Assembly (NCBI GenBank): GCA_030426085.1
Contig: JAUHYW010000070.1
Span: forward strand, 1-58,986
Source: a bacterium
GTDB lineage: Bacteria > Myxococcota_A > Bradymonadia > UBA7976 > UBA1532
Length of the DNA: 58,986 nt
Direction: 5' to 3'
The position numbers and the translations under genes are program-made. The notes below the pieces were generated by a model. That model was not told the origin of the DNA and did no database searches. It worked only from the letters and a program-made list of their open reading frames with translations. Each line of letters starts with the position of its first letter. Within the stretch, counting starts at the first letter, position 1. Positions 41,594 to 47,185 of this stretch are shown here, in pieces.

Positions 41594-43840
41594 TCACGGG
41601 CAGCCCGGCTGCATCTGGATCCAGGCCCCGACGAGGTTGGTGCCCCACGGATCGATCCGGTTGGTGGCGAGCTGCGGCATCTGGCCCTCGCCGCGCAGGT
41701 TCATCCGGGCGAACATCAGGCTGCGCGCGGGATCGCCGGGCGCGAGCAGCACCGCCCCGTCGATGCCCAGATCGCCCTGCTGCGGCTCGGCGTCGCACAG
41801 GCCCATCTCGGCGAAGGGCGTGCTCGCCCGCAGGTCGATGTCGGCGTTGGCCGGGCCGTCGGGCTGGTGGCACGAGGCGCAGTTGGCCTCCAGATAGGCC
41901 CGGGCCCGATCGCTGATCGGGGCGTCGGCGTCCTCGATGTCGGGGAACGCCGGCAGCCCCGCCGCCGGCCCCGGCGGCGTCACGTAGCCCGCCTCGGCCA
42001 GCGCATCGAGCTGTGCGGCGACCTGCCCGTCGTAGTCGAACATCCGGTTGAGCTGCGGCCCCGACAGCCCCAGCGCGTAGCCCTGGCTCTGGATGTGGCA
42101 CTGATCGCACTGCGCCCGGCTGGGATAGACCCACTCCAGCGGCCCCTCGGCGGTCTCCAGCGTCCGGCTCTCCGATCCGGCGAGCAGCCGGGCGTCGGTC
42201 TGCTCCTCGTTCCAGCGGAAGCTGTAGCCGTTCCACCGATCCTCGCCCTTGCGGATCATGCGGGTCTCGACCCGCCGCTCGGTCCCATCGGGCTGCGCCA
42301 TGAGGAAGGTCTTGATCAGCACCGTGCCCACCGGCACCTCGAACACCCCCTCGTCGCGCCAGATCATCTGCGTGCCCGCCGGCAGCGCCATCGAGCGCAG
42401 CTTGATCGCGCCATCGCTCCACAGGCGGGCGTTGACCCCGTAGGGCACCACCCCCGGCGCCAGGGTGTGGGTCGCGGTGTCGTCGAAGCAGCCGGTCTCG
42501 CTCAGCCACTCGGGCAGCGGCTCGACGTCCACCGGGGCCGCGGCGCGCTCGAGGCGGTTGATGCCGGCGTCGAAGGTCACCACGTACAGCTCGCCGTCGG
42601 CGTCCTCGCCGAAGCTCGTGATCTGGCGCCCGGAGTCGGCGAGCACCGTCACCTCGGGCGGGCCGCCGGGGGAGGGGCGCAGGGCCCAGATGCGGCCCGA
42701 GTTGTAGTCGCCGAACACATACGCCCCCCACAGCTCGGGCAGCGCCGCGCCCCGGTAGACGAAGCCGCCGGTGATCGACTTGCCCTCGTCGTGGCCGTAG
42801 GCGAAGACCGGCGGGGTGAAGGCGTCCCGATCGCAGCCGGGCACGTAGCACTCATCGCCCTCGACCGGGTTCCAGCCGTAGTTGTGCCCGCCCTCGACCC
42901 GGTTGACCTCCTCCAGCCGATCCTGCCCCACGTCGGCCGCCCACAGCTCGCCGGTCGAGCGGTCGAAGCTCATGCGCCACACATTGCGCAGGCCCCAGGC
43001 CCAGATCTCGGGCCGACCGGCGCCGGGATCGCCCGGCTGGCAGCGCTCGGCGGCGAAGGGGTTGTCCGGGGGGATGCCATACGGCAGACCGCAGGCGGCG
43101 TCGGCCCGGTCGACGTCGATGCGCAGGATGCTGCCGAGCAGGGACGAGGTGTCCTGCCCGTGCCCCAGCGGATCACCGGCCGCGCCGCCGTCGCCCAGGC
43201 TGATGTAGAGGTAGCCGTCGGGCCCGAAGTGCAGATCGCCGCCGTTGTGGTTGCCGAACGGCTGCTCGACCTCGAGCAGGATCTGCTCCGACTCGGGGCG
43301 GGCCCGCAGCGGATCCATCGGATCGCGCTGCACCTCGCTGATCACCGAGCGCCGGGGGTTCGCGGCCGAGTAGTAGATGAAGAAGCGCCCGTTCTGCGCA
43401 TAGTCCGGGTGGAACGCGAGCCCCAGCAGGCCCTCCTCGTTGTGATTGCGGCTGACCGGGCGCTGGTAGAACGTCTGCACGTCGCCCGGCGCCGCGGGGT
43501 CGAACCAGACGACGCGCCCCGACTGCTCGATGGCGAAGCGCAGATCGGGCTCGCCGGGGGCGACGCCGAACCACAGCGCCCGCTGGAGAGCCAGCCTGGG
43601 GAAGGCCGGCACCACCCGCATGTTGCCGATGGGCGGCGCCGGGGGCAGGCGACAGGTCCGGTTCTCGACCCGCGGCGCGAGCGGGCTGCCGTCGTCGACC
43701 CCGATCTCCATGCCCCCGTCGCTCCTCGGCCCGCCCCGATCGGCCTCCGGCTCGAGCGGCGGCGTGCCGTCCCCCGCGCACCCGACCATCAACGCCAGCA
43801 GCCCGACCAGCCCGACCCCTCGCCCCATCTCACCGCGCAT
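41594..43840 (-). CDS. PQQ-type sugar dehydrogenase lipoprotein with c-type heme motifs
   Basis: The protein has 748 residues. A lipobox 'LMVGC' is followed by a six-bladed glucose/sorbosone dehydrogenase domain ('NHNEEGLLGLAFHPDY', 'NHNGGDLHFGPDGYLYISLGDGG', 'GLRNVWRMSFD', 'NYGWN'). The C-terminal 330 residues contain two CxxCH heme sites ('CDQCH' and 'CASCH'). This fusion suggests that electrons from sugar or alcohol oxidation pass directly to heme within one surface protein. ATG 43840 is preferred for a G-run about 8 nt upstream; TTG 43846 and ATG 43828 are alternatives. The cofactor and substrate are not proven by sequence. Confidence 0.82.
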   Translation of the reverse strand: MRGEMGRGVGLVGLLALMVGCAGDGTPPLEPEADRGGPRSDGGMEIGVDDGSPLAPRVENRTCRLPPAPPIGNMRVVPAFPRLALQRALWFGVAPGEPDLRFAIEQSGRVVWFDPAAPGDVQTFYQRPVSRNHNEEGLLGLAFHPDYAQNGRFFIYYSAANPRRSVISEVQRDPMDPLRARPESEQILLEVEQPFGNHNGGDLHFGPDGYLYISLGDGGAAGDPLGHGQDTSSLLGSILRIDVDRADAACGLPYGIPPDNPFAAERCQPGDPGAGRPEIWAWGLRNVWRMSFDRSTGELWAADVGQDRLEEVNRVEGGHNYGWNPVEGDECYVPGCDRDAFTPPVFAYGHDEGKSITGGFVYRGAALPELWGAYVFGDYNSGRIWALRPSPGGPPEVTVLADSGRQITSFGEDADGELYVVTFDAGINRLERAAAPVDVEPLPEWLSETGCFDDTATHTLAPGVVPYGVNARLWSDGAIKLRSMALPAGTQMIWRDEGVFEVPVGTVLIKTFLMAQPDGTERRVETRMIRKGEDRWNGYSFRWNEEQTDARLLAGSESRTLETAEGPLEWVYPSRAQCDQCHIQSQGYALGLSGPQLNRMFDYDGQVAAQLDALAEAGYVTPPGPAAGLPAFPDIEDADAPISDRARAYLEANCASCHQPDGPANADIDLRASTPFAEMGLCDAEPQQGDLGIDGAVLLAPGDPARSLMFARMNLRGEGQMPQLATNRIDPWGTNLVGAWIQMQPGCP

Positions 43841-43870
43841 CACCAAGACCCCCGCGCCCGGCGCCCCTCG

Positions 43871-45412
<1,542 letters not shown>

Positions 45413-45543: not shown

Positions 45544-45586
45544 TCCTCGTCCCCTAGTCGTCATCGACGATTTCATCAGGGATGAA
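45544..45586 (+). promoter_or_regulatory. Second copy of the 16-mer with inverted repeats
   Basis: TCCTCGTCCCCTAGTC at 45544-45559 is identical to 20563-20578. It is followed by TCGTC-ATC-GACGA and by TTCATC-AGG-GATGAA, two short palindromes. They sit about 40-80 bp upstream of the predicted start of the small RNA, where an activator or repressor would bind. Whether the 16-mer and palindromes form one element is inference. Confidence 0.35.
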
Positions 45587-45588
45587 TT

Positions 45589-45617
45589 TTTCGTTTGCAA
45601 TCCGACCCGCCTATGGT
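45589..45617 (+). promoter_or_regulatory. Candidate promoter of the small RNA
   Basis: An AT-rich island in very GC-rich DNA includes TATGGT (45612-45617) as a possible -10, with TTTCGT 17 bases upstream as a weak -35. TTGCAA (45595-45600) with TAATTT is an alternative. Transcription would begin at about 45622-45626. Confidence 0.35.
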
Positions 45618-45623
45618 AATTTC

Positions 45624-45914
45624 TTCTCGTCTCGCAGGGGGTTTTGCCCGGCTCCCTGGAGATGCGATTCGGAGGCGCTTCGGCGCCATCGAGTCGCTCG
45701 AGGGGTGCGATGTCCTTCGGATGTCCACCCCTCACTTGGGCCGGTCTTCCTGGCCGGTCCGCCTGAGACGAGATTTGCCCGGTCTCTCTCAGGCGCTCCA
45801 AAGAGGTATTGCCCGGCCTCTTGGAGCAGGGACCGAGTCACTGCCTGAACTCGGTTCCAGAGCCCCCTGGGGGCGGCCATCGGTCGCCATAAAGCCCGGG
45901 GGGTTTCTTTTTTT
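45624..45914 (+). ncRNA. Structured small RNA with three hairpins sharing a UUGCCCGG loop
   Basis: No protein frame fits this gene-free stretch, but it folds into a row of strong hairpins. Hairpin A pairs 45635-45641 with 45652-45658 (7 bp, loop UUUUGCCCGG). Hairpin B pairs 45761-45768 and 45770-45773 with 45783-45794 (12 bp, one bulge, loop UUUGCCCGG). Hairpin C pairs 45795-45806 with 45817-45827 (11 bp, one bulge, loop UAUUGCCCGG). The stems differ but the loops are nearly identical, a sign of selection on the loop. Other stems: 45664-45671/45690-45697 capped by GGCGC-UUCG-GCGCC, 45700-45707/45726-45733, and 45829-45838/45849-45858 (10 bp). A U-run terminator follows. It matches no RNA family I know (not tmRNA, RNase P, SRP or 6S). 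Repeated loops suggest a protein-titrating or mRNA-pairing RNA. Exact ends are estimates. Confidence 0.65.
45891..45914 (+). terminator. Intrinsic terminator of the small RNA
   Basis: AAA-G-CCC, loop GGG, GGGTTT (six pairs with one bulged G) is followed by C and seven T. T-runs of this length are very rare in this window, which makes termination here likely. Confidence 0.65.
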
Positions 45915-46036
45915 CGAAGCCGGGCCCCCGACTTGAGCGCTTTCCCACAAACTCCGGCGCTTCGCCCAGCACCGTCGCGAGCGCCGATCCCGGTGTCTGT
46001 CGGCGCTCGGCCCGGCACTGTGCTCGACCGTATTGT

Positions 46037-47185
46037 GTGGGCAAGCTCTTGAGCGCCGGCCTGCCCTGGGGCCACACCCCCCGCCAACGCCTGCTGGCCG
46101 GCGCGCTGATCCCCGGCGTCGGCGAAGCCCGCGCCGTCAGCGCCGACATGGCCCGACTCGCCGGCGACCCCGCCGCAGACCCCCACGAACCCCCGCCCGC
46201 GCTGACCCCCGCCGCCCGGGAGAAGTGGCGCGCGGCGGGCCGCGACCCCCGCTTCGCCGCCCGGGTCGCCGCCGAGCGGGCCGCGCTGGAGCGCCTCGGC
46301 GCGTGGTACCTCACCCCGATCGACCCCCGCTGGCGGGCCCCGTGGCCCACCGGCATCCTGCGCGGACGAGGCCGGCTGCCCGAGCGGGGCGTCGCGATCG
46401 TCGGCGCCCGCCGGGCCGACCGCTACGGCCTCGACGTCGCCCGCCGGGTGGCCCGGGCCGCCGTCCTCCGCCGACGGCCGGTCGTCTCGGGCGGCGCGTT
46501 CGGCGTCGACCACGCGGCGCACCGGGCGACGCTCGACGCCGGGGGCCGCACCGTCGTCGTCCTCGGCTCGGGCCTGAGCCACCCGGCCCCCGCCCGCCAC
46601 CAGAAGCTGTTCACCGAGGCCCTCGAACGGGGCGCCGTCGTCTCGCCCTTCCCCTGCGACCAGCGGGCCGCCCCGTGGACCTTCCCCCGGCGCAACCCGT
46701 GGATCGCCGCGCTGGCCGAGGCGGTGGTCGTGGTGCAGGCCGGGGCCCGCAGCGGCGCGCTGCACACCGCCCGGGCGGCCCTCGAACGCGACATCCCGGT
46801 CTACGCCGCCCCGGGCCCGATGGACGCCCCGCTGCACGCCGGCTGCCACGCGCTGATCGCCGAGGGCGCCCGGGTCCTGACCGCGCCCGACGCCTGGACC
46901 GAGTCCCTCGGGGGCGACGCGCTCGGAGACGACGCCACCCCGGCCGGACACCCGCCCACCGACCGCCGCGATCCGCTGCCCGACGGGCGCCCGCCGCCCG
47001 ACATGCCGCCCGACCAGCGGGCCCTGTGGCTGGTCGCCGGCGTCGAGCCCCGCCCCATCGCCGAGCTGGCCGAAGACGCCGGGCTGGCCATCGACCGGGC
47101 GCTGCAATCGGCGACGCTGCTCGAGCTCGACGGCTGGCTGCGATCCGCGTCCGGCGGCCGCTACGCCCGGGGCCGCCCCGGCTGA
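46037..47185 (+). CDS. dprA: DNA-processing protein DprA
   Basis: The protein has 382 residues. An N-terminal helical region is followed by the Rossmann-like DprA core ('[21 protein letters not shown]', '[31 protein letters not shown]', '[11 protein letters not shown]', 'VYAAPGPM') and a C-terminal winged helix ('[30 protein letters not shown]'). DprA loads RecA on incoming single-stranded DNA during natural transformation. The start at GTG 46037 gives a full N-terminus; no good ribosome binding site is seen and overlapping GTG/TTG codons are alternatives. It lies 120 bp downstream of the small-RNA terminator. The 'FP.RN' segment of the core appears as '[11 protein letters not shown]', slightly diverged. 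Confidence 0.92.

Follow-up and report, generated by a model that had tools for sequence, protein, structure and literature searches.

In RNAs of the CsrB/CsrC/RsmX-Y-Z type a single loop motif, GGA, recurs on variable stems, and RNAIII and the Rsa RNAs of Staphylococcus carry repeated C-rich loops that match Shine-Dalgarno sequences. The two cytosine-rich loops of B11 pair with ribosome-binding sites (PMC10470900). Few small RNAs have been characterised in Myxococcota; Pxr of myxobacteria, found in hosts without hfq, has a hairpin loop that is essential for its function (PMC5684412). Here we describe a bacterial small RNA, about 285 nt long and not catalogued before, which is almost certainly encoded at 45629..45914 (+ strand) of the window, by which we mean the whole 58,986-nt stretch of DNA analysed. 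The 5′ end of the RNA was inferred from a −10 element.

The gap between the start of the DUF362 gene (45412, − strand) and dprA (46037, + strand) spans about 625 bp, close to the gene-free 620 bp of the original prediction. Folded alone, positions 45620-45920 reached −187.4 kcal/mol compared to a shuffle mean of −128.3 kcal/mol (z = −10.85), and 0 of 100 shuffles folded as low. The minimum free energy fold of 45629-45914 (+ strand) consists of eight hairpins, three of which (hairpins 1, 5 and 6) carry the loop UUGCCCGG with its UUGCCC, while hairpin 7 displays UGCCU in the loop CUGCCUGA. The three UUGCCC hairpins were all in the original prediction and have strong stems (14, 14 and 12 pairs); UUUUGCCCGG, UUUGCCCGG and UAUUGCCCGG were confirmed in the sequence, with TTGCCC at 45644, 45775 and 45809. 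The fourth copy, CUGCCUGA in 45829-45858, had been missed. The three further stems and the terminator said to follow do exist, but three of the stems separate the first loop hairpin from the second, and the third is followed by nothing more than the CUGCCUGA hairpin and the terminator. Likewise, the loops described as 9-10 nt long hold a UGCCC/UUGCCC core, but much of the loop can be closed by U.G wobbles, and the shared loop sequence is conserved as (Y)UGCC(Y)R but not in the GG after UUGCCC, which is not in every copy. An 8-mer seen three times occurred in 332 of 20,000 dinucleotide shuffles (1.7%), so that the threefold 8-mer by itself is weak evidence; none of 600 shuffles gave a 5-mer common to at least three hairpin loops. 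The entire window gave no match in Rfam 15 at the gathering score, and the homologous loci, at E up to 5, gave four sub-threshold matches, none of them convincing and none to a Csr/Rsm model. With high confidence, the element can be considered a real structured RNA, and its description as a new small RNA holds up, with no Rfam match and with homologues in three genera.

Homologues were found in five other genomes, giving six in total. All are metagenome-assembled and come from a single uncultured family, of which they represent three genera; the family probably belongs to the class Bradymonadia of Myxococcota. These are the window genome (G000) and its congener G001 (genus g1), G007 and G012 (g7), and G004 and G011 (g4). 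In all six the RNA is present as a single copy and occupies the gap on the 5′ side of one and the same DUF362 gene (43871..45412, − strand, in the window; PF04015, 5.8e-40), which adjoins it in every case. A DNA search recovered the whole element in the congener (85%) and only its 3′ end in the two g7 genomes. A covariance model built on the 3′ module (R1) recovered G011, and G004 was located via its DUF362 neighbour, after which R1 scored it at 14.8 bits; within the searched loci, R1 gave E = 5.8e-6 for G011 and 0.009 for G004. Across 57 genomes of the class and 379 of the phylum, R1 added a single genome to those of g1 and g7, namely G011 (27 bits), and this only in the search of the class; the 379 phylum genomes yielded no further homologue with this model, which is weak beyond g1 and g7. 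Weak R1 matches in G006, G039 and G047, and one in G307, were rejected as lacking a UGCCY hairpin cluster; that in G006 is a terminator that seems to follow a tRNA gene. About 75 further DUF362 loci across Myxococcota held occasional pairs of TTGCCC hairpins, attributable to chance, and no comparable array. Because neither the DUF362-locus nor the R1 searches found the RNA elsewhere, its known distribution comprises three genera of a single family.

Direct searches with short patterns were less informative. The sequence TTGCCCGGCCNNYTGGAGCRGG occurs exactly only in G000, G001, G004 and G011; at two mismatches it was as frequent as a reversed control, and it had no match in viral contigs. A search for a spaced triple-TTGCCC pattern was swamped by unrelated repeats. 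The single-contig 8.0 Mb relative G047:C1 gave 120 matches to the three-TTGCCC pattern, and it contains dozens of ~30 bp tandem arrays with ...TCGGTGCGTGGGCATCTTGCCCTCG..., which are unrelated to the RNA. Separately, GGGCAA/TTGCCC occurs 38 times in the whole window compared to 22 predicted by dinucleotide shuffles, a count reached by 0 of 100 shuffles.

From 5′ to 3′ (all on the + strand), the locus begins with a promoter-like element of the extended −10 type (TTGCAA - 13 nt - TGGTAATTT, 45595..45622), identified by comparing layouts by eye and not flagged by a generic sigma-70 scan. Hairpin 1 (45629..45663; 14 pairs) presents UGCCC at 45645-45649 in its UUGCCC loop and has a counterpart in G001, G007 and G012, alike in its 5′-most place and in the motif. 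Three hairpins with other loops follow: hairpin 2 (45664..45697), capped by a UUCG tetraloop, hairpin 3 (45700..45733), with 15 pairs, and hairpin 4 (45738..45760), with a UUCCU loop. Relative to G001, both sides have changed at two, three and one of their pairs, respectively, and no pair is broken in hairpins 2 and 3. Hairpin 5 (45761..45794) holds a UGCCC pentaloop (45776-45780) within UUUGCCCGG; three of its stem pairs differ from G001 on both sides, with an identical loop. Hairpin 6 (45795..45827; loop AUUGCCCG, UGCCC at 45810-45814) has a counterpart in 6/6 genomes, and UUGCCCGGCC is invariant in all of them while the stem has been replaced between genera. Hairpin 7 (45829..45858), by fold and comparison, carries the CUGCCUGA loop (UGCCU at 45842-45846) and then GAACU; ACUGCCUGAACUCGG is invariant in two genera, and the g4 RNAs keep only GRACU there. 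GRACU is kept in 6/6 genomes at the last hairpin before the terminator, and possibly constitutes a second signal. A branched terminator hairpin followed by CUUUUUUU (45860..45914), again assigned by fold and comparison, closes the unit with its T-run; in G007 and G012 the inner loop of the terminator is also UUGCCCA.

The comparison of the two congeners separates stems from loops. G000 and G001 align over 324 bp without gaps and with 42 substitutions, and right outside the alignment the ungapped identity is only 30% and 35%. Among 106 pairs, nine changed on both sides, eight on one side and none was broken, compared to 33-51% paired and at most two two-sided changes when the partner was slid one to three columns; with two sequences only, a shuffle control for these changes is limited. 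All four motif loops are identical between the two genomes. In the other genera the stems differ, and 3-5 copies of the motif are kept, at differing places. Since three genera keep the loops while the stems change, the loop is probably the working part of the RNA, and this supports the view that it is the loop that is under selection. The original prediction had likewise taken the loop to be the functional part and named compensatory stem changes around invariant loops as support, which is what was found.

In the folds of the six RNAs we counted 24 copies of UGCCY (four each in G000 and G001, five each in G007 and G012, three each in G004 and G011). The following base is a purine in 24/24 and the preceding base a pyrimidine in 22/24, the exceptions being GUGCCCG in G007 and G012, so that the conserved core reads (Y)UGCC(Y)R. 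Most copies can be closed by a Y-R pair (U.G, C-G or U-A) around a UGCCY pentaloop. Loop-loop dimerisation through a CCGG palindrome was considered and rejected, as several copies are without the second G (UUGCCCGU, UUGCCCA and UUGCCCGC).

What the loops bind is less certain, and we lean slightly towards a protein sponge over an antisense RNA, at somewhat below an even chance, because of the multivalency and the strict flanks of the motif. The RNA displays several (Y)UGCC(Y)R loops on interchangeable stems; the repeated loops would be binding sites, so that one RNA could hold several copies of one partner, and the sponge would titrate a putative RNA-binding protein that recognises the UGCCY hairpin. 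Its working mode may be CsrB-like, although motif and protein would both differ. In favour of this, the loops outlast complete stem replacement in three genera at 3-5 copies each, and the fixed flanks amount to a fixed hairpin geometry, which suits recognition by a protein. The pair changes between the congeners, with no pair broken, the lack of enrichment of the complement around start codons and the failure to detect Hfq count on the same side. A sponged protein should also meet such hairpins in mRNA leaders, however, and the lack of clear UUGCCC hairpin enrichment counts against a sponge: the hairpins are not enriched in 92 kb of G000 noncoding DNA, and G004 gave three compared to a permutation mean of 0.7, too few to use and two of them inside called ORFs. 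These samples come from partial genomes (0.75 Mb of G000, 1.5 Mb of G004) with simple gene calling, as do the target tests below. The only clearly intergenic UUGCCC hairpin elsewhere in the G004 sample (L216 1004-1045; GAGGAGC-UUCUUGCCCCG-GCUCCUC) precedes a 1044-aa ORF by about 78 nt.

The strongest alternative, somewhat less probable but still a serious contender, is a trans-acting antisense RNA that would need no Hfq and whose GC-rich UGCCC loops would form kissing contacts with YGGGCAR sites in mRNAs. A search of 18 related genomes detected no Hfq, C-rich loops fit pairing, with the mycobacterial 6C/B11 loops as a precedent, and the wobble closing pairs can open to give loops of 7-10 nt. 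Against this, GGGCA and GGGCAA were not enriched near the start codons of 1077 genes of G004 and 397 of G000, where the Shine-Dalgarno AGGAG was clearly seen in the same test; an antisense RNA with many targets should show such enrichment. A small number of targets is conceivable, and these would not require 3-5 identical loops. The original prediction had the RNA titrate a protein or pair with targets containing CCGGGCAA; neither the complement near starts in the two genomes nor UUGCCC hairpins elsewhere were clearly enriched.

We give little credence to a third possibility, that the repeated arms mimic the tRNA-Gly(GCC) anticodon arm, which we take them to resemble, so that an enzyme or toxin acting on this anticodon loop might be drawn to the RNA as a multivalent decoy. 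A stem closed by the 7-nt loop Y-U-G-C-C-Y-R can be drawn for many copies (e.g. GGCGG-UUGCCCA-CCGCC in G007 and G012), but the position matching 37 is a pyrimidine. Still slimmer are the chances of a DNA-level repeat or cluster of protein-binding sites with no RNA. A short motif is indeed repeated in the gap, and TTGCCC repeats are present elsewhere in the class, but the pair-preserving changes between G000 and G001, the single copy per genome, the terminator and the orientation-specific motif all argue against it.

Equally improbable is a leader or attenuator of the adjoining gene. In G011 the RNA is on the DUF362 strand, directly 5′ of that gene, but in the remaining five the RNA and the DUF362 gene diverge. 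The downstream gene, moreover, varies between genera: dprA (46037..47185, + strand; PF02481) is the neighbour in genus g1 only, and the gene in G004, G011 and G012 is not dprA. The RNA of G004 and G012 is flanked by DUF362 and a Cys-rich (MopE-like) gene, identified by eye from its repeats, and runs on the strand opposite to both; in g1, dprA takes the place of this neighbour. By-eye alignment placed TTGACC - 13-14 nt - TGGT, then a T/A-rich AT end, 5′ of the RNA in G007, G012, G004 and G011. The G011 locus (L018 1265-1605) has the same flanking genes as in G004 and G012 (loci L026 and L017), but RNA, promoter and terminator are inverted together, possibly through misassembly. As the promoter-like element and terminator move with the RNA, even when inverted, they indicate a self-contained gene rather than a leader, and we infer that the RNA is independently transcribed from its own gene. 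In G000 and G011 the DUF362 gene has kept a glucose/sorbosone dehydrogenase-type gene with it (the two cover 41597-45412 in the window). A small protein gene is the least credible reading of all. Both congeners do keep frame 1 open throughout the RNA, but substitutions fall 15/8/13 by codon position, 17/25 changed codons are nonsynonymous and every frame is interrupted in G007.

Whichever partner the loops have, a multivalent RNA with conserved loops and unconserved stems points to either an RNA-binding protein with an uncatalogued motif or an Hfq-free antisense system, and the conserved motif is a ready bait for a partner search. Among described RNAs, RNAIII and the Rsa RNAs differ in that their loops match Shine-Dalgarno sequences, whereas no such match exists between UGCCC and the AGGAGG-type site observed here. 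Pxr, compared by its description, is also a Myxococcota small RNA of hosts lacking hfq, but it has three predicted stem-loops (with SL1 and SL2 conserved) compared to 7-10 predicted hairpins here. The 6C/B11 RNAs of mycobacteria and other Actinobacteria share repeated C-rich hairpin loops and a high-GC host without Hfq; they belong to a different phylum, however, and 6C has two cytosine-string loops, whereas the present RNA has 3-5 UGCCY loops with at most three Cs running and no Rfam match. A sponge for CsrA itself was rejected as unlikely, because unpaired GGA is absent from five of the six folds and present at one site in G011; the Csr/Rsm models of Rfam gave no match, and the motif is UGCCY rather than GGA. 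CsrA is encoded in most of the related genomes (14/18 searched, among them every genome with the RNA but G012, which is outside the searched set), a setting like that of CsrB-type RNAs. It is these RNAs, CsrB/CsrC/RsmX-Y-Z, that the present one resembles in overall design, as a stand-alone RNA with many hairpins, one repeated loop motif, variable stems and an intrinsic terminator.
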